The position numbers were made by a program, and so were the translations under genes. A stretch of DNA of 64,000 bases from Betaproteobacteria bacterium (lineage in GTDB: Bacteria > Pseudomonadota > Gammaproteobacteria > Burkholderiales > SG8-39): assembly GCA_016210745.1 (NCBI GenBank), contig JACQTO010000125.1:1-64000 (forward strand), given 5' to 3'. The notes below the pieces were generated by a model that saw only the letters and a list, made by a program, of their open reading frames with translations, was not told the origin of the DNA and searched no databases. Every line of letters starts with the position of its first letter. The first letter of the stretch is position 1. Shown here one piece after another: positions 1 through 16,109 of the stretch.

Positions 1-1792
1 CCATGATGCTCTTGAGTCCGGCACCGCGCGCCACCTTCAGCGCGTCGATCACCTCGGGCCGCGGCGGGTCGATCATGCCGAGCAGCCCGACGAAGATGAG
101 GTCCTTTTCGACGGTCTCGGGGGTTATGCTTTCCGGGACTTCCTTCAACGGGCGATAAGCCACGCCCAGCACCCGCAGCGCGTTGCTCGCCATATCGTGG
201 TTCTGCTCGAGTACCGCCTTGCGCATTTCCTCCGTGAGGCCGACCGCCTTGCCGCTCTCCACCTTGTGGCCGCACAGATCGAGGATGACATCGGGCGCGC
301 CCTTGACGAAGGCAATGATCGGCGGATAGTCGAAACCCGAACCGGAAGCCCGCGCCTGAGAGCCATCGGGGCGGTGGATTGTGGTCATCCGCTTTCTGTC
401 CGAATCGAACGGGATCTCCTGAATTCGGGGCAAAGCCTTTTCCAACTCCTCGCGACGGTAACCGCCCTTCGCAGCGACGACGACCATGGCGCCTTCCGTG
501 GGATCGCCGATGATCTGCCAGGAGCGCCTCCCCGATTCGTCGGTTCTTTCGTCCAGCTTCGCGTCGTTGCAGACGAGCGCACCCTGGAGCAGGAGCGTCG
601 CGTCCGGATCCGCCAGCGGCTTGAACGCGTCCTTACCCAGGAAGAACTCTCCGCTCGGGCTATAGCCTTCTCCGGTGATCCGGAACCGCTTGCCGCCGGC
701 CCACCCCTGGACAACCGTCATCTCGTTCTGCGTCAGGGTGCCGGTCTTATCCGAACACACCACGGTGGCGCAGCCGAGCGTTTCCACGGCGGGGAGTTTG
801 CGGATCAGCGCATGGTGCTTGATCATCCGCTGCATCCCGAGGGCGAGGCAGATGGTCACGATGGCCGGGAGACCTTCTGGAACGGCCGCGATGGCAAGGC
901 TCACCGCGGTCATGAACAGATTGATGATGTCCTTCTTCTCGGTTTGCAAATAATTCATGAAGCCGCCACTCAAGGCTTCAGTGAGGTGCGTATCGCGGAA
1001 CAGTCCGTAGATGAAAACGACGGCGCAAATGGCCAGGCATGCCGTTCCGAGAACTTTCCCCAGGTGCTCGAGCTTCTGCTGCAGCGGCGTGTCCTCGGCC
1101 TCGAAGGACTGGATCATCTCGGCGATAAGACCGATCTGGGTGTTCATCCCGGTGCCGGTCACGATGCCCCTGCCCCGTCCATAGGTGATGAGGGTTCCCA
1201 TGAAAGCGGTGTTCTTGCGGTCGCCCAGGGGTATTTCCTTGTCCAGCACTACCCCGGCGTTCTTCTCGACCGGGACCGATTCGCCTGTCAGCGAGGCTTC
1301 CTCAATCTTCAGATTGACGCTCTCGGCGAGCCGCAGATCCGCCGGAACATAGTTTCCGGCCTCCAACAGGACGATATCGCCCCCGACGATCTCCCGGCCG
1401 GGGATCGTTATCTGGTGGCCGTCGCGTATGACCTGGGCATTGGGGGCAGACATTTTCTTCAGGGCAGCCAGGGCCTGTTCGGCCTTCGATTCCTGAATGA
1501 CACCGACCACGGCATTCAGCACCACGATGAACATGATGGCTATCGAATCCACCCACTCGCCGAGCGCGAGCGAGACCAGCGCCGCGATAATCAGGATGAT
1601 GACGAGGTAATTGTTGAACTGATCCCATAGGAGCGAGAAAAACCCGGGCCGCGGGCGTTCCGTCAATTCATTGGCGCCGAATTTCGCCAAGCGCTCCTGC
1701 GCCTGTTGCTGCGTCAGACCTCGTTCGATGTGGGTCTGAAAGCTGCCGATAAGTTCATCGATCGGCTTACCGTGGGATTCTCTATCTTGCAT
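1..1792 (-). CDS. P-type cation-transporting ATPase (Ca2+/PMA-like), partial, runs off the window start
   Basis: Manual reverse-strand translation from ATG at 1792: [43 protein letters not shown]..., with TGES and [18 protein letters not shown] motifs. Absent from the ORF track because it is open at the edge. Confidence 0.93.
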
Positions 1793-1962
1793 TGCTGCCC
1801 CCTCCAGATATTTTTGCAATCCGCGCCGTCCGCGGCGCGGCCCATAACACTCTTGTTCGGTACGAATATGCCGTGCTCTAGGAGTGTAGAAAATTCATGG
1901 TTTGCGGCCTATTTCGCTACCGCGGCGCAACCCAGCAATTGTTTTTTAATCATTATCTTAGC

Positions 1963-1979: not shown

Positions 1980-2298
1980 TTTGAATTGATCAGAACGCCC
2001 TGACGGGCATGACCACCGTGCAGTTCGAATCTGCGTTTGCTCACACGCTCGAACAGCAGAGATCCGACGGTTTCGGTCAACTTCTTCTCCTGCACCAATA
2101 CCGTGGCTGCGCCACGGATAGTTCGTCGGCGGCGTGGGCACGGTTCCCGGATTTGTCGATCGATTCAAGGACCTGCACTGAAGCAATATTCCGTGTTTGA
2201 GGTGGCGTCGTATCCTTCTATGCAGGGGTTTCCTGTGCCGGTAAAGCCAGTCAATCCGCATGCCGGAGCCCCGCCCCAAAAGCAATGCGGCCTTCACC
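1980..2298 (-). pseudogene. Decayed LysR-family regulator N-terminus (frameshifted)
   Basis: Minus-strand pieces in different frames match the intact LysR at 6905: RRHLKHG vs RRYLKHG; RAHAADELSVAQP vs RAAEELHIAQP; VQEKKLTETVGSLLFERVSKR vs VQIKKLTETIGLPLFEQVGKR. Confidence 0.8.
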
Positions 2299-2317: not shown

Positions 2318-2465
2318 AAAAAAAGACCTCGCCCGTCTAGGCAAAGGTCTCGCTTACAACGCTTAGGTTGTCGCCAGGACCGGGGACTATTGTCCCGAGA
2401 TGACGGCCCTCGCAGGGCGGCCACGCAGATGCCGCCCAAGCTACTCCCCTTTGGAGGGGGCGCCC
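2318..2465 (-). ncRNA. yybP-ykoY (Mn2+) riboswitch candidate A, with terminator-like 3' stem and U7
   Basis: Minus strand: AAAGGGGAGTAGC ... GCCGTCATCTCGG ... GTAAGCGAGACCTTTGCC, then AGACCT-N15-AGGTCT-TTTTT. Confidence 0.85.
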
Positions 2466-2528
2466 CAAATACTCAAGGCGCCGCGGGTATTAAAACACGT
2501 AATGTCAATCCTATTCAATACGCAGGCG

Positions 2529-2543
2529 ATTACGAACAGTAAT
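2529..2543. promoter_or_regulatory. LysR-type dyad candidate ATTACGAACAGTAAT
   Basis: ATTAC-N5-GTAAT between the divergent riboswitch leaders A and B. Confidence 0.45.
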
Positions 2544-2696
2544 GGATAGGAATACGAAATCTCCACGTGTTCCAATTAGTTGCTGATACGCATTGCAAAC
2601 ATTCATTTAACTTCCGCTTCGCGCAAGTGCATAGTGAGTGCGTCTCTTGGCGAGACAGTGGTTGCGGCGGCCGTGTAGTCCGGCACCGGCCACAGG

Positions 2697-2847
2697 GGCT
2701 TCGCTGAGGGGAGTAGCTTCGACAGCCGGCAGGGCTGTCCGCAGTGTGGCCGTCAATCCGGGAACCCATCCCCGGCCCCACTGGCGCGTGCGGCAATCGA
2801 GCGCCGCACTTTGCAAGCGAGACCTCGCCCGACTCAGCGGGTCTCGT
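2697..2847 (+). ncRNA. yybP-ykoY (Mn2+) riboswitch candidate B, upstream of usp and P-type ATPase
   Basis: GAGGGGAGTAGC ... GGCCGTCAATCCGG ... GCAAGCGAGACCTCGCC, then a CGAGACC / GGTCTCG competing stem. Confidence 0.85.
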
Positions 2848-2946
2848 ATCCGTTTTTGTCCCGAAGCCTCTGCGGTCCCCGGTTCGGTCGCGCCCACTGG
2901 AAAAACCGGGCCTGCGCCGGGCCTGCTCAACTTCGAGAGGTGAACC

Positions 2947-3432
2947 ATGACCCGCATCCTCATTCCTGTTCTCGACTCGGTGAATTCAGGCCCGGCCGTA
3001 AGACACGTTATCGATGAATTCCTGCACGGTGAGCTGATGGAGGTGCAGCTGCTGCACTTGCCCGCCTCACCCACCTACCGGGTCGCTCATTGGTTATTGG
3101 GCAAGAACGGCGGCGCGGCCGACAAAGCGCTGCAATCCGCACGGGATTTGCTGGAGAGGGTTCACGTGCCGTGCGCGGTGCATTCCGGCTCCGGGAACAA
3201 GGCCCTGGCTATCAACGCCGCGGCGCAGCGGCTGAAGACCGATCGCATCGTCCTCGGCACGGCGCGCCATTGGTCGGCTACCCGTATGACCGAAGACTCG
3301 GTGATCCAAGAGGTTCTCGATACTGCGCCGGTGCCCGTGACCTTGGTGGCGGGCAAGGCGGTGTCTCGGGTCGAGCAATACGGGGTCGCCGCGGGACTCG
3401 GCGCCACACTGTGGCTGATCCTCGTCGAATGA
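2947..3432 (+). CDS. Universal stress protein (UspA-like)
   Basis: MTRILIPVLDSVNSGPAVRHVIDEF..., with TDRIVLGTARHW...VIQEVLDTAPVPVTLV. Confidence 0.8.
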   Translation: MTRILIPVLDSVNSGPAVRHVIDEFLHGELMEVQLLHLPASPTYRVAHWLLGKNGGAADKALQSARDLLERVHVPCAVHSGSGNKALAINAAAQRLKTDRIVLGTARHWSATRMTEDSVIQEVLDTAPVPVTLVAGKAVSRVEQYGVAAGLGATLWLILVE

Positions 3433-3572
3433 AGGGGGCGCTTCCCCGATGAGAAGGCAGGGCGGCAACGGTCCGGACCCGCCTTTGCCCCTCATGTTTC
3501 CCGGGTTTTGAGTGCGTTTCAGTCACCCTGAAACGAGTTCCACGCGACTAATACAGGGAATTGGTGCCTCGA

Positions 3573-6449
3573 ATGGACAAAGTGCTTTCAGCCAACCGCA
3601 ATAGGAAGACCATCAATGGCGCGGCGAGCTCGCCGGACGCGGATGCGCCGATAACCGAGACCGCGCCGGCAACGAAAACGCGGGCCTCTTCGATCGCGAC
3701 ATCCGGGGACAATGCGAAAGCGACGGCGAGGATACCGTGGCAATGTTTGAGTGCCGATGAAGCGCTGGCGCGGCTGGATGTGTCGCGCGAGCGAGGTCTC
3801 TCTGCGACGGCGGTTTCAGAACGCCTCGAGCGCTTTGGGCATAACGAGATCCGCGAGCAGAAACGCCGCAGCCCATGGCGCATGCTGGCGGAACAATTCA
3901 CCGAATTCATGATCATCGTGCTGATGGTCGCGGCGGCGATCTCGGCCCTGATCGGTGAACCCGAAGATAGTTTCGTGATCATGGCGATCGTTCTGCTCAA
4001 CGGCGTCATCGGTTTCATTCAGGAGTACCGCGCGGAGCGCGCGATTGCGGCGCTGAAGCGGCTGGCCGCGGCGAGCGCCCGGGCGCTGCGCGAGGGCAAG
4101 GTGGTCGAGATACCCGCGGCCCAGCTTGTGCCCGGGGATATCGTGTTGCTCGAAGCAGGCAACGTGGTTCCAGCCGACCTGCGCCTGATCGAATCGGCTG
4201 CGCTCAAAGTGGAGGAAGCCGCCTTGACCGGGGAGTCGGTGCCGGTCGAAAAGGATCTGCGGCCACTGCCGGACCAAGACCAGCAGGTCGGCGACCGGAA
4301 GAACATGGCGTTCAAGGGAACCACGATCGCCTACGGGCGTGGCCGCGGCGTCGTTATCGCCACCGGCATGCAGACCGAGCTGGGCACCATCGCCAGCCTG
4401 CTCGCCGACAAATCCGAGGTCAGGACGCCGTTGCAGAAGCGCTTGACGGCGTTCGGCAAGCGCATCGCTCTCGTGTGCCTCGTGGTTTGCGCGGTTGTGT
4501 TCGCGCTGGGCGTCATGCGTGGCGAGCCGTTGGCGCTCATGTTCCTCACCGCCGTGAGTCTCGCCGTCGCCGCAATACCCGAAGCGCTGCCGGCGGTCGT
4601 GACGACTTCCCTCGCGCTGGGCGCCTACAAGATGGTGAAAAGAAACGCGCTTATCCGTCGTCTGCCGGCAGTGGAGACCTTGGGTTCGGTCAGCTACATA
4701 TGTTCGGACAAGACCGGGACTTTGACGCAGAACAAGATGCGCGTCGAACAGGTCTGGGCCGATGGGCAGCTGCTGTCGGCCAAGCAACCCTTGGCAAAGC
4801 AAAGCGAGGGCCAACAACTGCTGTACGCCGCCTTGGCCCTGAACAATGACGCCGTCATTGGCGAGGGCGGAAACGACACGGGAGATCCCACCGAGATTGC
4901 GTTGCTGCGCGAGGCGCGTGCGGCGGGACTTGAAAAAAGCGCGCTCGAGGCCGCCTCGCCGCGGGTCGCCGAACTGCCTTTCGACTCCGAACGCAAATGC
5001 ATGACGACTGTGCACCGGGCTGAGCACGACTTTGTCGCGTTCACCAAAGGTGCACCGGAAAAGCTCGTAGAGCGCTGCAAGGCCTCGTTCGTCGCGGGCG
5101 TGCGGACGCCGATCGACAAGGATGCCGTGCTGCGCTGCGCCGAGCGCATGGCGGAAAGCGGTCTGCGCGTGATGGCGATCGCGTATCGGCCTTGGGTGGA
5201 AATCCCCGAACCCCTGACGCCGGAAGCGGCGGAGTGCGGGCTCATATTTCTCGGCTTGGTGGGAATGATGGATCCGCCGCGCCCGGAGGCCCAGGAGGCG
5301 GTGGCCATGTGCAAATCGGCGGGAATCACCCCCGTGATGGTCACGGGCGATCACCCGGTGACGGCGCGCGCCATCGCCCAGCGCCTCGGCATCATCGGCG
5401 AGGGCGGCCGCGTGATTACCGGCAAGGAACTGGCGGACCTTTCTCCGGAGGAATTTCGCAGACAGGTGAAGGACATTTCGGTCTACGCCCGTGTCGATCC
5501 TTCGCAGAAGATCAACATTGTGGAGGCGCTCCAGGCGCGCGGGGAGTATGTCGCCATGACCGGCGACGGGGTGAACGACGCACCGGCCATCAAACGCGCC
5601 GAGATCGGCGTCGCGATGGGCAAGATCGGCACCGATGTCGCGCGCGAAGCATCGCACATGGTGCTGCTGGACGACAATTTCGCCACCATCGTCGGCGCCG
5701 TGCGCGAGGGAAGGCGCATCTACGACAATATCCGCAAGTTTATCCGCTTCGTCATGGGCGGGAACTCCGGGGAGATCTGGACCATCGCGGCCGCGCCCAT
5801 GCTTGGCTTGCCGCTTCCACTGCTGCCGATCCAGATTCTCTGGGTCAATCTGATCACCGATGGCCTTCCGGGGCTGGCGCTCGCAGCGGAGCGCGAAGAG
5901 CGCAACGTCATGCGCCGCGCGCCTAGGCCCGCGACCGAGAGCGTATTCGCGCACGGTCTGTGGCAGCACACCTTGTGGGTGGGACTGCTCATTGGGGCGA
6001 TTTGCATCGCGCTTCAGTCCTGGGCCATGAACCGCGGTTCGGAAAACTGGCAGACCGTCGTATTCACCGCCCTGGCCATGTGCCAGATGTACCACGTGCT
6101 CGCGATCCGTTCCGAGCGTGACTCGACCTTTACGATCGGGTTTTTCTCCAATCTGCCTTTATGCGGGGCAGTCGCACTGACGCTCTTGCTTCAGTTCGCG
6201 GTTATCTACATTCCCGCGCTCAACCCGATTTTCAAGACCCAGCCGCTGACCGGCGTGGAGCTTGCGGCAAGCACGCTGCTGCCTGCGTTGGTGTTCGTCG
6301 GCGTGGAAATCGAGAAATGGATGATAAGGAGGGGATTACTCTACGCTTCCAATCCGGTGATCGCGAAACAACGGCAGGAGTCACTGTCAGGCTCCCCTGC
6401 AAAGAATCGCCCTGATCGTGGGTACGCAATTCATGCCGAAGATACTTGA
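3573..6449 (+). CDS. P-type cation (Ca2+/Mn2+-like) transporting ATPase
   Basis: [42 protein letters not shown]; about 950 aa. ORF track start 3561 is TTG; ATG at 3573. Confidence 0.95.
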   Translation: MDKVLSANRNRKTINGAASSPDADAPITETAPATKTRASSIATSGDNAKATARIPWQCLSADEALARLDVSRERGLSATAVSERLERFGHNEIREQKRRSPWRMLAEQFTEFMIIVLMVAAAISALIGEPEDSFVIMAIVLLNGVIGFIQEYRAERAIAALKRLAAASARALREGKVVEIPAAQLVPGDIVLLEAGNVVPADLRLIESAALKVEEAALTGESVPVEKDLRPLPDQDQQVGDRKNMAFKGTTIAYGRGRGVVIATGMQTELGTIASLLADKSEVRTPLQKRLTAFGKRIALVCLVVCAVVFALGVMRGEPLALMFLTAVSLAVAAIPEALPAVVTTSLALGAYKMVKRNALIRRLPAVETLGSVSYICSDKTGTLTQNKMRVEQVWADGQLLSAKQPLAKQSEGQQLLYAALALNNDAVIGEGGNDTGDPTEIALLREARAAGLEKSALEAASPRVAELPFDSERKCMTTVHRAEHDFVAFTKGAPEKLVERCKASFVAGVRTPIDKDAVLRCAERMAESGLRVMAIAYRPWVEIPEPLTPEAAECGLIFLGLVGMMDPPRPEAQEAVAMCKSAGITPVMVTGDHPVTARAIAQRLGIIGEGGRVITGKELADLSPEEFRRQVKDISVYARVDPSQKINIVEALQARGEYVAMTGDGVNDAPAIKRAEIGVAMGKIGTDVAREASHMVLLDDNFATIVGAVREGRRIYDNIRKFIRFVMGGNSGEIWTIAAAPMLGLPLPLLPIQILWVNLITDGLPGLALAAEREERNVMRRAPRPATESVFAHGLWQHTLWVGLLIGAICIALQSWAMNRGSENWQTVVFTALAMCQMYHVLAIRSERDSTFTIGFFSNLPLCGAVALTLLLQFAVIYIPALNPIFKTQPLTGVELAASTLLPALVFVGVEIEKWMIRRGLLYASNPVIAKQRQESLSGSPAKNRPDRGYAIHAEDT

Positions 6450-6590
6450 TCACCTCGTGCCGCAGAATCGGCGCGGCATGCCTGATCGGCCGCGCTCTCC
6501 GCCGCGCATCGAGCGAGATGAGCGGCATCCCGGCGCCGCAGTGATGCGGATCAACCGACGGTGGTAAATGCGGATTGGTTAATCGCTTTC

Positions 6591-6605
6591 ATTACGATTC
6601 GTAAT
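6591..6605. promoter_or_regulatory. LysR-type dyad candidate ATTACGATTCGTAAT
   Basis: ATTAC-N5-GTAAT (TCATTACGA-T-TCGTAATGA) upstream of the promoter at 6628. Confidence 0.5.
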
Positions 6606-6627
6606 GAACTGCAATAAGCGTAACTGC

Positions 6628-6656
6628 TTGATGGGCAATGTCTTCTCTGCTATAAA
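6628..6656 (+). promoter_or_regulatory. sigma70-like promoter, TTGATG-N17-TATAAA
   Basis: Near-consensus -35/-10 with 17 nt spacing just upstream of riboswitch C. Confidence 0.65.
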
Positions 6657-6684
6657 GAAACTGAGTGTCTTGGCGAAAGCCGGA

Positions 6685-6817
6685 CATCCCTCTGAAGGGG
6701 AGTAGCTTCGGCAGCCGGTGGCTGCTGTGACGCGGTCGTCAATACGGGCTTCGGCCCCGGTCGCGCCAGCGTCGTTGATACGTGCAAGCGAGACCTTTGC
6801 CCATTGGGTGAAGGTCT
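6685..6817 (+). ncRNA. yybP-ykoY (Mn2+) riboswitch candidate C, upstream of LysR gene
   Basis: GAAGGGGAGTAGC ... GTCGTCAATACGG ... GCAAGCGAGACCTTTGCC, then an AGACCT / AGGTCT competing stem. Confidence 0.87.
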
Positions 6818-6825
6818 GTCCCGGA

Positions 6826-6857
6826 CAGCGGCCTTCATCTTGAGGTGAAGGCCGCTG
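6826..6857 (+). other. 12-bp hairpin CAGCGGCCTTCA / TGAAGGCCGCTG between riboswitch C and LysR
   Basis: Perfect inverted repeat with loop TCTTGAGG. Confidence 0.65.
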
Positions 6858-6904: not shown

Positions 6905-7858
6905 ATGCTGCAACCGGGAATACGACGCTACCTCAAGCACGGAACGCTTCCGCAACTTCGCGTTTTCGAGGCAAGCGCGAGGCTGGGAAGTCTTACCCGC
7001 GCCGCCGAAGAACTTCACATCGCCCAGCCTACCGTCTCAGTGCAGATCAAGAAACTCACCGAAACTATTGGCCTGCCGTTGTTCGAACAGGTCGGCAAGC
7101 GCCTCTACTTGACCGAGGCGGGCCAGCGCCTTTTCGCCGGCTGCCAGGAGGTATTTCGCAGCTTGTCGACGCTCGAGGAATCACTGAACGGCATGCGCGC
7201 CATGGAGAACGGGCGACTGCGGCTGGCGGCCAGTTCCACGGGCAAGTACTTTGCTCCGCGCATGCTCGGTGCCTTTATCCAGCGCTATCCGCAAGTCGAT
7301 GTCTCGCTGGAGATCCACAACTGGAAGACGCTGATCGACCGGCTCGCGAACAACCAGGATGACCTGTATCTTTTCGCCGCCCCGCTCGGGAGGGACGACG
7401 TCGTAACCCAGGCGCTTCTGCCGAATCCGCTGGTCGTCTTTGCGCGCGACGATCATCGGCTTGCCGGCGAGCGTCAGATTGCCTTCGAGCGCATCGCCGC
7501 GGAGCCGCTCCTCATGCGCGAACCCGGGTCCGGCACTCGGCTGCTCGCCATGAAACAGTTCGAACTGCGCGGACTCACCCCGAAGATCAGACTGGAGCTG
7601 AGCACCGACGAGGCGATCAAGGAAGCCATCCGTGCCGGTCTGGGTGTGTCGATCATGTCACGGTTCACGCTCGGATCGGAGCCCGAACCTTCGCGACTGA
7701 TTTGCCTGGATGTCGAGGGCTTCCCACTCGAGAACCACTGGCACTTCGCCTACCCGGCAGGCAAGCAGCTCACGGCAACGGCGCGGGCGTTCCTGGATTT
7801 TGCGCGTCTCGAGGCCAAGGGACTGGCCATGGAAGGTCTCGAGCACTGCGAGCTCTAG
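6905..7858 (+). CDS. LysR-family transcriptional regulator
   Basis: N-terminal HTH LRVFEASARLGSLTRAAEELHIAQPTVSVQIKKLTETIGLPLFEQVG; GGAGGA SD before ATG 6905. Confidence 0.93.
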   Translation: MLQPGIRRYLKHGTLPQLRVFEASARLGSLTRAAEELHIAQPTVSVQIKKLTETIGLPLFEQVGKRLYLTEAGQRLFAGCQEVFRSLSTLEESLNGMRAMENGRLRLAASSTGKYFAPRMLGAFIQRYPQVDVSLEIHNWKTLIDRLANNQDDLYLFAAPLGRDDVVTQALLPNPLVVFARDDHRLAGERQIAFERIAAEPLLMREPGSGTRLLAMKQFELRGLTPKIRLELSTDEAIKEAIRAGLGVSIMSRFTLGSEPEPSRLICLDVEGFPLENHWHFAYPAGKQLTATARAFLDFARLEAKGLAMEGLEHCEL

Positions 7859-7860
7859 AG

Positions 7861-9198
7861 CTACGGTAGCGTCTTCAAGACCTGGCGCACGGTCTCGAAC
7901 ATGCGCTCCACGTGGGCGCGCTCGGCGACCAGGGGCGGCGCTATCACGAGCGTGTCGCCGCTGGTGCGCAGCCACATGCCGAGTTCGAACGCGCGCACCG
8001 TGGCTTCGAAGCCCCGCGCGCCGGGTGCGCCGGGCCGCGGCTCGAGGTCGATGCCGGCGGCAAGTCCAAAGCTGCGGATGTCCTGCACCAGCCGTTCGCC
8101 CTTCAGCGCATGCGCGAGATCCTGGAAATGCCCCTCCAGAGCGCGGCCGCGCACGAACAGCGCCTCCTTTTCATACAAGTCGATCGCCGCGCAGGCCGCA
8201 GCGGCGGCAAGCGGGTGTCCCGAGTAGGTGTAGCCGTGAAACAGTTCGATGCCGGGGGGCGAATCATTGACGATGGCGTCGTGCACTTCCTGGCGGACCG
8301 CGACCCCGCCCATCGGCACCATGCCGTTATTGACACCCTTGGCGAAGGTGATCGCGTCGGGCGTCACGCCGAAGCGCTCCGCCGCGGTGGCCGCGCCGAC
8401 GCGGCCGAAACCGGTGATCACTTCGTCGAAAATCAGGAGGATGGCGTGGCGCGTGCAGATATCCCGCAGGCGCTCCAAGTAGCCCTTGGGCGGCACCAGT
8501 ACGCCGGCGGAGCCTCCGACCGGTTCGACGATCACGGCCGCGATGTTCGACGCGTCGTGCAACGCGATGATGTGCGTCTCGAGGTGGTCGGCGAGGTGCG
8601 CACCCCAGTCGGGCTGGCCGCGCGAATACGCCTGATGCTCGCGCGAATAGGTGTGCGGCAGGTGATCGACGCGCGCCAGCAGGTTCGCCGCGAATGCCTT
8701 GCGGTTCGCCGGCATCCCGCCCACCGACATGCCGCCGAAAATCACGCCGAGATAACCGCGCGCGCGGCCCACCAGCAGCGTTCGCTGCGGCTCGCCGCGC
8801 GCGCGGTGGTAGGCCAGCGCGATCTTCAGCGCAGTATCGGCCGCCTCCGAGCCCGAATTGGTGAAGAACACGCGGTTGAGTCCGGTAGGCATCAGCGATG
8901 CGATGCGTGAGGCTGCCTCGAATGCGACCGGATGGCCCATCTGGAACGGCGGCGCAAAATCGAGCTCGTCGAACTGGCGCACGATCGCCTGTTTGATTTC
9001 CTGGCGGCCGTGTCCGGCGGGCACGCACCACAGCCCCGACAACGAGTCGATGATCTCGCGCCCGCCGGCGCTGCGATAGAAAACGCCCTTCGCCCCGACT
9101 AGCAGGCGCGGCGCTTCCTTGAAACTGCGGTTGGCGGTGAACGGCATCCAGTGGTGCCGCAGGTCCAAACCCGTGTCTGCCGGGTGCTTGTCCATCAT
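7861..9198 (-). CDS. Class III aminotransferase (omega-amino acid:pyruvate aminotransferase-like)
   Basis: HHWMPFTANRSFK...FTNSGSEAADTALKIALAYHRARGEPQR...LIFDEVITGFGRVG...ITFAKGVNNGMVPMGGV. Confidence 0.92.
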   Translation of the reverse strand: MMDKHPADTGLDLRHHWMPFTANRSFKEAPRLLVGAKGVFYRSAGGREIIDSLSGLWCVPAGHGRQEIKQAIVRQFDELDFAPPFQMGHPVAFEAASRIASLMPTGLNRVFFTNSGSEAADTALKIALAYHRARGEPQRTLLVGRARGYLGVIFGGMSVGGMPANRKAFAANLLARVDHLPHTYSREHQAYSRGQPDWGAHLADHLETHIIALHDASNIAAVIVEPVGGSAGVLVPPKGYLERLRDICTRHAILLIFDEVITGFGRVGAATAAERFGVTPDAITFAKGVNNGMVPMGGVAVRQEVHDAIVNDSPPGIELFHGYTYSGHPLAAAAACAAIDLYEKEALFVRGRALEGHFQDLAHALKGERLVQDIRSFGLAAGIDLEPRPGAPGARGFEATVRAFELGMWLRTSGDTLVIAPPLVAERAHVERMFETVRQVLKTLP

Positions 9199-9344: not shown

Positions 9345-10184
9345 ATGCGAAAACATATCCAAGGCATCGATCATGTCGTGTTTGCGGTTCGCGATCTCGA
9401 TTTTGCCCGCGATACCTTCGCGCGCATGGGTTTCACGGTGACCCCCCGCGGTTTCCATTCCCTCGGCTCGCAGAACCACTGCGTGATGTTCGCCGAGACC
9501 TACTTGGAACTCTTGTGGCTGCCGCCGGAGTTGAAGACGCGGCCGTTCATCGCTGATTTTCTCGCGCGCGGCGGCGATGGCTTGGCTGCAGTCGCGCTCA
9601 AGACCCGCGATGCGCGCAAGGCACATGCCGAATTGCAGGCCGCCGGGCTCGATCCGACCGAACCGGTGGACTTCTCGCGTCCTGTTGAACTGCCCGAGGG
9701 AATCCGCGATGCGAACTTCCGCACCTTGGACATCGGCCCGGCGCATGTTCCCTGCGGCCGGCTGTTTCTATGCCAGCATTTGACGCCCGAGGCGGTGTGG
9801 CGATCCGAGTGGCAGCGCCATGCAAACGGCGCAGCGGCTCTTGCCGCAATGGCCGTGATCAGCGCTGACATTGCGGCGACGACGAGCGGCTACGAGAGGA
9901 TATTCGATACGAACGCGCGCGATATCGCCGAAGGCCGGCTGATCGAAACCGGAACCGCCTCGATTGCGGTTGCCTCTGGCAAGAGCCTCTCCAGCCGCCT
10001 GCCGGGCGTGTGGATCGCAGCGCGTCCGGCGCCTCTGATCGCGGCGCTATTTGTCCGCGTGGCGGATCGGGCTCTAGCCGACAAACACCTGCGCCGCGGC
10101 GGATTTCACCCGGTGCGAATGCCCGACGGATCGCTCGCCCTGGGCGCCGCGGAAGCGCACGGCGTGGCGATGGTGTTCGGCTGA
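9345..10184 (+). CDS. VOC/glyoxalase-like domain protein
   Basis: QGIDHVVFAVRDLDFARDTFARMGFTVTPRG...SQNHCVMF. Confidence 0.85.
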   Translation: MRKHIQGIDHVVFAVRDLDFARDTFARMGFTVTPRGFHSLGSQNHCVMFAETYLELLWLPPELKTRPFIADFLARGGDGLAAVALKTRDARKAHAELQAAGLDPTEPVDFSRPVELPEGIRDANFRTLDIGPAHVPCGRLFLCQHLTPEAVWRSEWQRHANGAAALAAMAVISADIAATTSGYERIFDTNARDIAEGRLIETGTASIAVASGKSLSSRLPGVWIAARPAPLIAALFVRVADRALADKHLRRGGFHPVRMPDGSLALGAAEAHGVAMVFG

Positions 10185-10243
10185 GTTCGGGTTTCCCCCA
10201 GGAGCATTGACCGACTTGGCGTGGAATTGGTTTTCTATTAGGT

Positions 10244-10289
10244 CTCCACATTTTGTTCAGTTGCGTGCAACTGAACAAAATGTGGAGAT
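10244..10289 (-). repeat. Palindromic hairpin element H1 (22-bp perfect arms, 2-nt loop)
   Basis: TCTCCACATTTTGTTCAGTTGC-gt-GCAACTGAACAAAATGTGGAGA; TCAATCTC flank on the minus strand. Confidence 0.9.
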
Positions 10290-10368: not shown

Positions 10369-11676
10369 TCAGGCGGCCAGCTTACGCAGGTTCAGTTGCT
10401 CCATGAATGCGTCCACCCGGTTCTGGGCGCGCACTTCGTCGAACTCCCGCTCATCGCCCATGTTGCCTTCGTAGGTCATGACCGGAATGCCGGCGGCGGC
10501 CAACCCTTGGCGGTTTTGCATGACCCCCAGCGACAATCCTTCGCAGCCGCGATTGAGATGCATCATGACGCCGTCGACCTTCCATTCGCGCACGATGGTC
10601 TTCATCATCTCGGTCTTGATGGTCGGGTCGAAGAAGTGCTGCCACAGCGGCTTTGACAGGTTCCAGTCGGCATACAGGCGCAGCGCCTGGTCGCGCGTGG
10701 CGATGTCGATGCCCTTGTCCATGGGGGTGGTGCGCGGTCCCCAGGTTCCGTCCGGCCTGGTTTCCCAGGTGCCTTCCAGCCCGAAGGTGTACAGCGAACC
10801 GATCGACACGGCCCCGTACAGTTCCAGGTAGCGGAAGATCTTGAGGAAGCCCCACGGAGGCTGGGTGTCGGACATGATCCGGCAGCGCTCGGTGGGCACT
10901 GCCGCTATTCCGCGCGCCACCCGGTCCCTGACTTCGTCGCGCAATTCCTCGTAGAAGTCGGCGCACCACTGCGAAGACTTATGCAGAACAGAGAGCACGT
11001 ACAGCGAGTACATCGTCTTTTCGTCGAGCGGGGCGGGCACGGCTTTGTTGAAGCTGCAGATTTCCGCCCATAGCGAGGTCGCCCGCATTTCATTCTTCAC
11101 CGCGCGGATCAGCAGCCCATCGTCGCATTTGCGCCCGGTAGCCTTTTCAACAAAATCGATCGATTCGTGCAACTGTGCCACCACATAGTTCAGCCGATCT
11201 TCGTCCATATCGCGGTAGGGACCGACGTTCACGTCGACGTAGAACTCCGGCACCCCCTCGTGGCGCGAGGCATGCTGATACCACTTCGAGTGGCTGCAGC
11301 AAATCTGGGTCTGGAAGTTGAACGCCGGCTTGGGAAACTCGCCACCGAGCACGTATTTGTTCAGATGCATGCTGCCCCAATAGATGCGCATGTAGGCACA
11401 CGCGTCCCGGGCGAAGCCGACGGCTTCGCTCGCATCCATGCATTCCTTGGCGAACTTGTGGTCGTGGGATATTCCCGCTGCGTAGGGCTCTCCGGTCAGC
11501 GGGTAAACGTCGTCGCCGAGCGCTGTAGGAATGGCATCGAAGGACCAACCGGCGCCGCCCCAGCGAATGCCGCCTTTCTCATGGGCCTTGGCGTAGTTGA
11601 TGTAATACTGCTCGCGCAACGCCTTGGCCTTTTTCCAGAGCTTGAGCGGTTCGGTGGGATACCTGACTGCAGCCAT
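10369..11676 (-). CDS. 2-hydroxyacyl-CoA dehydratase / benzoyl-CoA reductase subunit (HgdB/BcrB/BzdO-like)
   Basis: About 435 aa; [26 protein letters not shown] and [32 protein letters not shown] resemble the HgdB family. Start ATG 11676 with SD chosen over track start 11781. Confidence 0.75.
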
Positions 11677-11765
11677 CGTGATGACACTCCTCGTTGAAAC
11701 GCCTGTTATCGAGCGCGGGTCGCGCAAGACCACCGCGAGAGCCGCTGGGTCAGGTGACAGGCAGA

Positions 11766-11785
11766 CTGAATGATTGTTCATTCAG
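11766..11785. promoter_or_regulatory. Operator-like palindrome CTGAATGA-TTGT-TCATTCAG
   Basis: Perfect 8-bp arms, 4-nt spacer, about 90 nt upstream of the HgdB-like start; resembles TetR-type TGAATGA-N4-TCATTCA operators. Confidence 0.6.
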
Positions 11786-11916: not shown

Positions 11917-11964
11917 TCTCCCCCTCTTTGCGCAGTTGCTCGCAACTGCGCAAAGAGGGGGAGA
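11917..11964 (+). repeat. Palindromic hairpin element H2 (23-bp perfect arms, 2-nt loop)
   Basis: TCTCCCCCTCTTTGCGCAGTTGC-tc-GCAACTGCGCAAAGAGGGGGAGA. Confidence 0.9.
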
Positions 11965-12050: not shown

Positions 12051-13237
<1,187 letters not shown>

Positions 13238-13267
<30 letters not shown>

Positions 13268-13915
13268 GTCTCTAAAACCATGCTGTTGACGTGCCTTATC
13301 AGGAGTGCGGCTCTGCGCGGGTATTTCCCCGAACCATGCGCCGATTACCTCGCCCGCCTCTTCGATTCCGGTTCGTTTCAGGCTGGAAAACAGCTGTGCG
13401 CTCCACAAGGGCGAGCGCGAAAAGAGCTCGCGACGCACCTCTTCCAAAACCTTTCGCGCTTCCGCGCGTGAGAGTTTATCCGCTTTCGAAAGCAGCGCGT
13501 GCATCGGCTTGCCGGTTACCTGAAACCATTCGAGCAGACCCCAGTCGAGCTCGGTCAGGGCATGGCGTATGTCCATGACGAGGACAAGTCCGGCAAGCGC
13601 TGAACGCGTGTGCAGGTAATCCCCGAGCAGCCTTCCCCAGGGTTTGCGCGCGTGCTTCGCGATCTTGGCGTAGCCGTAGCCGGGCAGGTCGACGAGAAAG
13701 CGATCGTCACCCAGACTGTAATAATTGATAAGCTGGGTTCTCCCCGGGGTCTTGCTCACGAATGCAAGGCGCCCCTGACCGACCAGCGTGTTGAGGGCGC
13801 TGGACTTGCCGGCATTCGAGCGGCCGGCGAAGGCAACCTCACAGCGGCTCTCCGCCGGCAGATCCCAGGGCTCCAGGGCGCTTTTGAAGAAAATGGCCTG
13901 CCGAAAGAGACTCAT
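13238..13915 (-). CDS. engB: Ribosome biogenesis GTP-binding protein EngB/YsxC
   Basis: EVAFAGRSNAGKSSALNTLVG...KTPGRTQLINYYSLGD...DLPGYGYAK...LSKADKLSR. Start ATG 13915. Confidence 0.95.
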
Positions 13916-16059: not shown

Positions 16060-16109
16060 TCTCGTGTTTTCGTGCAGTTGCGAAGCTGCAACTGCACGAA
16101 AACACGAGA
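16060..16109 (+). repeat. Palindromic hairpin element H3 (22-bp perfect arms, 6-nt loop)
   Basis: TCTCGTGTTTTCGTGCAGTTGC-gaagct-GCAACTGCACGAAAACACGAGA. Confidence 0.9.

Follow-up and report, generated by a model that had tools for sequence, protein, structure and literature searches.

In this study, we found three riboswitch leaders of the yybP-ykoY class beside two P-type ATPase genes and the gene of a LysR-family regulator. The best reading of this locus, which we consider probable from the sequences of the locus and its relatives, is a relay from a Mn2+ riboswitch to LysR over efflux pumps. Mn2+ riboswitches are usually described as cis-acting on transporters. The first-pass annotation had seen in the three leaders a duplicated control in cis, with LysR as a bystander; instead, leader C, and once also leader A, would gate LysR, which has putative operators at the pump promoters. 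The window, by which we mean the whole stretch of 64,000 nucleotides, lies at the start of an 82-kb contig in a genome of 5.2 Mb. The features are given below with the scores of two covariance models. R1 was made from 33 aligned Firmicutes aptamers only, with the structure set by hand, and R2 from 44 other Burkholderiales aptamers, with no window sequence included. The aptamer limits were drawn from the matches to these models, and the E values are those of the window search.

2–1819, minus strand: ATPase A, P-type ATPase of the IIA (SERCA/PMR1-like) kind; partial NCBIfam matches TIGR01116/TIGR01522; open-ended reading frame, cut by the contig start
1963–1977, no strand: putative LysR operator ATTACAAGTCGTAAT upstream of ATPase A, exact copy
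2033–2224, minus strand: decayed LysR remnant 3' of leader A (A/C alignment; translation)
2327–2346, minus strand: intrinsic terminator of leader A (terminator scan, CTTTGCCTAGACGGGCGAGG + TCTTTTTTTG; fold)
2340–2455, minus strand: leader A, L. lactis-type yybP-ykoY aptamer; R1 51.2 bits, E 4.1e-11; R2 68.9 bits, E 8.8e-15
2489–2503: weaker operator copy with one mismatch, between leaders A and B near the operator at 2529–2543
2529–2543, no strand: putative LysR operator ATTACGAACAGTAAT between the divergent leaders A and B, exact copy
2702–2830, plus strand: leader B, L. lactis-type yybP-ykoY aptamer; R1 27.7 bits, E 6.1e-5; R2 47.3 bits, E 2e-9
2818–2846, plus strand: hairpin CGAGACC...GGGTCTCG competing with the L1/P1 3' strand of B (fold; sequence)
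2947–3432, plus strand: Usp (universal stress protein) gene, the first gene 3' of B; Pfam PF00582, E 4.4e-11
3561–6449, plus strand: ATPase B, P-type ATPase of the IIA (PMR1/SERCA-like) kind (Pfam); TIGR01522 725 bits, below the cut-off of 798
6591–6605, no strand: putative LysR operator ATTACGATTCGTAAT, 85 nt upstream of aptamer C, exact copy
6628–6656, plus strand: likely promoter of C, TTGATG, 17 nt, TATAAA (read by eye)
6691–6801, plus strand: leader C, L. lactis-type yybP-ykoY aptamer upstream of LysR; R1 43.7 bits, E 3.9e-9; R2 62.5 bits, E 3.3e-13
6791–6817, plus strand: hairpin AGACCTTTGCCC-ATT-GGGTGAAGGTCT competing with P1 of C, with no T-run (fold)
6905–7858, plus strand: LysR-family regulator of 317 aa, start at 6905, in the aptamer-linked clade (Pfam HTH_1 + LysR_substrate; trees)

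Aptamers A, B and C and their locus

R1 matched A, B and C and nothing else in the whole 5.2-Mb genome, and the three were likewise the sole matches of R2. In the alignment of the 33 Firmicutes sequences, 92% of cells were paired and double-changed cells numbered 97, compared to 28 in shuffles; helices were supported by covariation in both this set and the 44 Burkholderiales sequences. The matches to A, B and C were full-length over helices P1, P1.1, P3a/b and P4, with mismatched P3 pairs in B. The L1 core (GGGGAGUAGC with GCRAGACC) was present in all three. Each also had an L3 with CGUCA and the Mn2+-contacting adenosine (CGUCAAUACGG in C, CGUCAAUCCGG in B and CGUCAUCUCGG in A, against UCA41AU43UC in L. 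lactis). When leader C was folded alone, a four-way junction resulted (z-score −4.3). The assignment of A, B and C to the L. lactis-type Mn2+ riboswitches of the yybP-ykoY class is thus well supported, with Mn2+ as the presumed ligand. The elements lie where the first-pass annotation had placed them and carry the landmarks it named, and its class assignment agrees with the two independent models, with the covariation seen and with the conserved L1 and L3 cores. What it observed stands, and its interpretation is supported in part.

The L. lactis yybP-ykoY aptamer is linked to P-type ATPases. A–C share this link with the L. lactis yoaB subtype (PDB 4Y1I), together with L1 (GGGGAGUAGC / GCGAGACC), an L3 of CGUCA-N3-CGG with the metal-binding A, helices P1, P1.1, P3 and P4, and a P1 that overlaps the terminator. 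They differ in that the P2/P4 hairpins of the window are longer and leader C controls a LysR regulator, not a transporter. The L1 core and the fold are also shared with the X. oryzae/E. coli subtype, that of the Rfam model RF00080, whereas L3 in that subtype is CGUCAACAUACUUGG / CAUGGCG. The genome has one copy of the latter subtype, a fourth Mn2+ riboswitch on another contig, which is the only RF00080 match above the cut-off and sits upstream of a gene that, read by eye, is GDT1/UPF0016-like.

The first-pass annotation had proposed a cmsearch with the Rfam yybP-ykoY model as a check, and by its rule sub-threshold scores, which were indeed obtained, would count against A–C. At the gathering score, RF00080 (Rfam 15) recovered none of A, B and C in the window, and at E ≤ 10 it listed A alone, with 19.2 bits against a cut-off of 45. 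At that cut-off it also recovered 0 of 16 other loci of the L. lactis/Firmicutes subtype (L067–L143), and the Firmicutes members that it does list score from 26 to 43.6 bits, all below the cut-off. The consensus printed for the current RF00080 is of the X. oryzae kind, unlike A, B and C, which belong with L. lactis. Crystal structures show an L3 loop of UCA41AU43UC in L. lactis versus ACA48U49ACU52 in X. oryzae (Suddala 2019, PMC6754395), and this difference explains why RF00080 fails to see the subtype. Among GTDB genomes, a pattern search turned up many Firmicutes and Nitrospirae leaders that share the core GGGGAGTAGC..CGTCANNNCGG..CCGG..GCRAGACC. Since RF00080 fails on Firmicutes members of the subtype itself, the sub-threshold scores do not refute A–C, and Rfam scores at face value were rejected as a test. 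As the model at its cut-off missed every L. lactis-subtype locus tried, such leaders are probably under-annotated. The same failure weakens the view that A–C resemble riboswitches by chance, which the 19.2 bits of A and the absence of B and C from the RF00080 list would favour. That view is already refuted by the exact and exclusive matching of A, B and C by two independent models in window and genome, and we regard its probability as negligible. A further Rfam match, ncS011 at 6825–6857, was dismissed; it covers a hairpin alone and stays below its cut-off.

A clear expression platform overlapping P1 was found for leader A, and candidate ones for B and C. In leader A, the 5' arm of the terminator doubles as the 3' strand of the P1 helix, and hence the two are mutually exclusive. 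Leaders B and C have weaker, competing hairpins; that of B is followed by TTTTT at 2853–2857 and is weak as a terminator, and that of C, having no T-run, is an uncertain platform. Switching between P1 and the hairpin is clear for A, and we infer it for B and C.

The flanking genes, two P-type ATPases and a LysR, are as first described, by reading frames, Pfam and NCBIfam. The window LysR has both traits of its type, HTH_1 (PF00126, 9.6e-21) and LysR_substrate (PF03466, 9.3e-54). Its identification as CbbR was rejected (NF045990, 209.7 bits against an equivalog cut-off of 450). Leaders A and C, with the first ~65 LysR codons that follow them, align with 77% mean column identity. The LysR remnant behind A is an N-terminal part with two single-base gaps relative to the intact gene, and its C-terminal part is missing. 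By their sequences, A and C are clearly duplicates, and A is the duplicated leader of a now-broken LysR copy. It could be argued from this broken LysR, and from the mismatched P3 pairs of B and its lowest scores of the three, that A and B are decaying copies and C alone is functional. We consider this quite unlikely, since A retains every core motif and a clean terminator, and B retains L1, L3 and P4 and precedes intact Usp and ATPase genes.

Several other elements were seen in the window. A class-III aminotransferase gene (7861–9198, minus), a glyoxalase-like gene (9345–10184, plus) and a 2-hydroxyglutaryl-CoA dehydratase D-component gene (10369–11781, minus) lie beside the locus. Three perfect inverted repeats with arms of 22–23 bp (window 10243–10288, 11917–11964 and 16060–16109) have common ends, TCTC...AGTTGC-N2..6-GCAACT...GAGA, and middles that differ and are always fully complementary. 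An anti-hemB RNA (RF02837) was found at 13178–13269 of the window (plus), with 73.6 bits, above its cut-off.

The aptamer and one LysR clade in Burkholderiales

The distribution of the aptamer was examined by scanning 398 genomes of the order with R1, which gave 89 aptamers in 66 genomes. The downstream genes were surveyed for 70 aptamers from this unbiased scan, outside the window, plus others from LysR relatives, and 87 were classified. A LysR gene followed the aptamer in 18 of the 70, and in 28 of the 87 when all loci were counted. The remaining classified aptamers preceded TerC genes of the YjbE kind (23, often fused to Usp) or the Alx kind (22), an NhaD-like transporter (7), a CaCA exchanger (2) or a P-type ATPase or Usp gene (3, two being A and B of the window), and two had no assigned gene. 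Thus, nearly all aptamers that are not before LysR are before known Mn2+/cation genes. The first-pass annotation had called three leaders in one locus, with A and B divergent, unusual. This was half right: divergent aptamer pairs occur in at least eight other Burkholderiales genomes (G010, G016, G046, G055, G090, G131, G202 and G232), and G202 carries three aptamers in a stretch of 2.2 kb, their downstream genes being LysR, TerC-Usp and Alx.

The TerC families that NCBIfam terms R_switched (YjbE/YkoY/Alx) follow the same aptamers in related Burkholderiales, often facing a LysR gene, whereas the window has P-type ATPases and a free Usp where TerC-Usp would be. These families also bear on the ligand. 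It has been suspected that some yybP variants sense other ions (PMC7266159), and A–C could keep the yybP-ykoY fold and have drifted to another divalent ion such as Ca2+, which would match Ca2+-ATPase-like pumps; the best matches of the pumps are indeed Ca2+ ATPase families. Such drift is very unlikely in our estimate, as L3 keeps CGUCA, the Mn2+-contacting A and the loop length of the solved L. lactis aptamer, and the sister genes fall in TerC families which NCBIfam names after the yybP-ykoY riboswitch.

The NhaD-like transporters are a family found 3' of the same aptamer subtype (L226, L227, L228, L249 and L272), with two aptamers each in L227 and L228. The single member tested, L249, had no Pfam match. 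The family is a candidate Mn2+ transporter family.

We then placed the aptamer-linked regulators in trees. In a maximum-likelihood tree of 38 LysRs, all 15 aptamer-linked full-length LysRs fell in one clade of 18 with support of 100/100. Three members of this clade were unlinked: a copy truncated at the N-terminus, a fragment (L286) that has a linked other half on a different contig, and G315. The last is a genuine exception, a full-length clade member with no detectable aptamer. In a tree of the DNA-binding domain, all 28 linked LysRs fell in one clade of 30 (100/98), including 11 that have the HTH only. Most of these HTH-only forms are 105–140 aa long; PF00126 was the sole Pfam match in the 3 of 11 tested, and no substrate-domain match lay near the forms. 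Their dN/dS of 0.13–0.44 indicates purifying selection, and because of it they look like working proteins, not debris. The window LysR resembles the CbbR-like LysR family in its HTH_1 and LysR_substrate domains, its divergent or adjacent targets and a putative operator of T-N11-A type near −65. The differences are that a subclade of its clade is without the effector domain and that a Mn2+ riboswitch would control expression.

In several genomes, the gene next to the HTH-only LysR on its 3' side is HbpS-like (L259 1858–2283, L260 5902–6327 and L234 6338–6748). The call was made by a Pfam match for L259 and by sequence likeness for L260 and L234.

Putative LysR operators

The inverted repeat ATTAC-N5-GTAAT has exactly three exact copies in the 5.2-Mb genome, all of them in this locus, and the reversed control pattern has none in the genome. 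One copy lies 85 nt upstream of aptamer C, and the identical 15-mer ATTACGATTCGTAAT recurs in L130, a metagenome-assembled genome included in neither model, where it precedes the LysR leader by 79 nt. In other genomes, exact copies number 0–7, which is the chance frequency, and are absent from the loci, which use variants. We also examined a relaxed form, ATTRC-N5-GYAAT, a consensus that was widened after the data were seen. Upstream of the aptamers in LysR-clade loci, there were 15 sites in 8.2 kb (1.83 per kb), compared to 2 sites (0.005 per kb) in the 387 kb that make up the rest of these loci, an enrichment of ~350-fold. Spacers of 3, 4, 6 or 7 in the relaxed repeat gave no site upstream of aptamers in these loci. 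Among the LysR loci, 10 of 28 have the relaxed form and 15 of 28 a looser one, and about half are without a clear repeat. The relaxed repeat has 12 further copies in the window genome, on other contigs. Two loci, L281 and L289, have runs of operator-like sites in steps of about 22 bp. A chance origin of the repeats was rejected for the window genome, where three of three exact copies are in one locus and the spacer controls are empty upstream of aptamers. By position and enrichment, the repeats are likely LysR operators.

A usual position of a LysR operator at promoters is near −65. The centre of the putative operator before leader C would lie at about −65 relative to the promoter read by eye; a sigma-70 consensus scan of the region at a strict setting reported nothing, this promoter included.

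A relay from RNA to protein

The regulation of ATPase genes that have no aptamer was considered in five relatives (L130, L229, L262, L277 and L286), in which the LysR gene has an aptamer and the divergent P-type ATPase has none. In such loci, any Mn2+ response of the pump via this system must pass LysR. In 4 of the 5 (L130, L229, L277 and L286, not L262), the DNA that separates the two genes carries the repeat or a close variant. These loci speak against the possibility that the leaders act in cis alone, with LysR answering another effector through its substrate domain and the repeats being an autoregulatory site copied with duplicated promoters, which would leave no relay. The window LysR does retain a full substrate-binding domain, and the shared repeats could have been inherited with the duplicates A and C. 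Two further observations oppose cis control alone: 11 clade members keep the aptamer yet are without the substrate domain, and the repeat at 1963–1977 upstream of ATPase A falls outside the leader copies. We judge cis control alone to be unlikely.

In the preferred reading, a relay, a rise in Mn2+ would stabilise the docked aptamer and keep P1 paired, the overlapping hairpin would be blocked, and transcription or translation would proceed. Leader C would in this way set the level of the LysR-family regulator. LysR would then bind the ATTRC-N5-GYAAT repeats before its own leader, before the divergent A/B leaders and before ATPase A, and would raise, or less likely lower, transcription of the Ca2+/Mn2+-type P-type ATPases. 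Activation is favoured over repression because of the operator position, from which the sign of LysR action is deduced. The signal would pass from Mn2+ to RNA, to LysR and to the efflux pumps, whose substrate we take from their family. In the B operon, the leader would be a second, direct RNA gate, giving a coherent feed-forward. Aptamers are often on both sides in TerC-bearing families, which would make a feed-forward pair there as well. A metal-sensing RNA thus probably relays its signal through a protein.

MntR/DtxR transcription factors link Mn2+ to transporter transcription, and MntR itself senses Mn2+. Both systems would connect Mn2+ to transporter transcription; here, in contrast, sensing would fall to the mRNA that encodes the regulator. 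The MntR/DtxR C-domain (PF02742) was found in 0 of 18 LysR-clade genomes, with a control search positive in 11 of 14; the search covered genomes of the LysR clade. We further propose, more tentatively and as a possibility that may well fail, that the metal sensor of the clade has moved from protein to RNA. The riboswitch would dose a LysR that drives riboswitch-free Mn2+/Ca2+ efflux genes, and RNA sensing would have led several lineages to discard the effector domain.

A literature search found no report joining yybP-ykoY with a LysR target; the gene survey of the class in Dambach 2015 was outside its reach. The riboswitch class is known. What seems new is the conserved Mn2+ riboswitch-LysR unit with putative operators, along with the LysR forms that have no effector domain. 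Such a conserved clade, with operators to match, would extend the reach of the RNA to aptamer-free pumps by protein relay. The relay would also offer an answer to promoter-level regulation of Mn2+ efflux where no MntR-type C-domain is found, and the HTH-only members make the idea that sensing moved into the mRNA directly testable.
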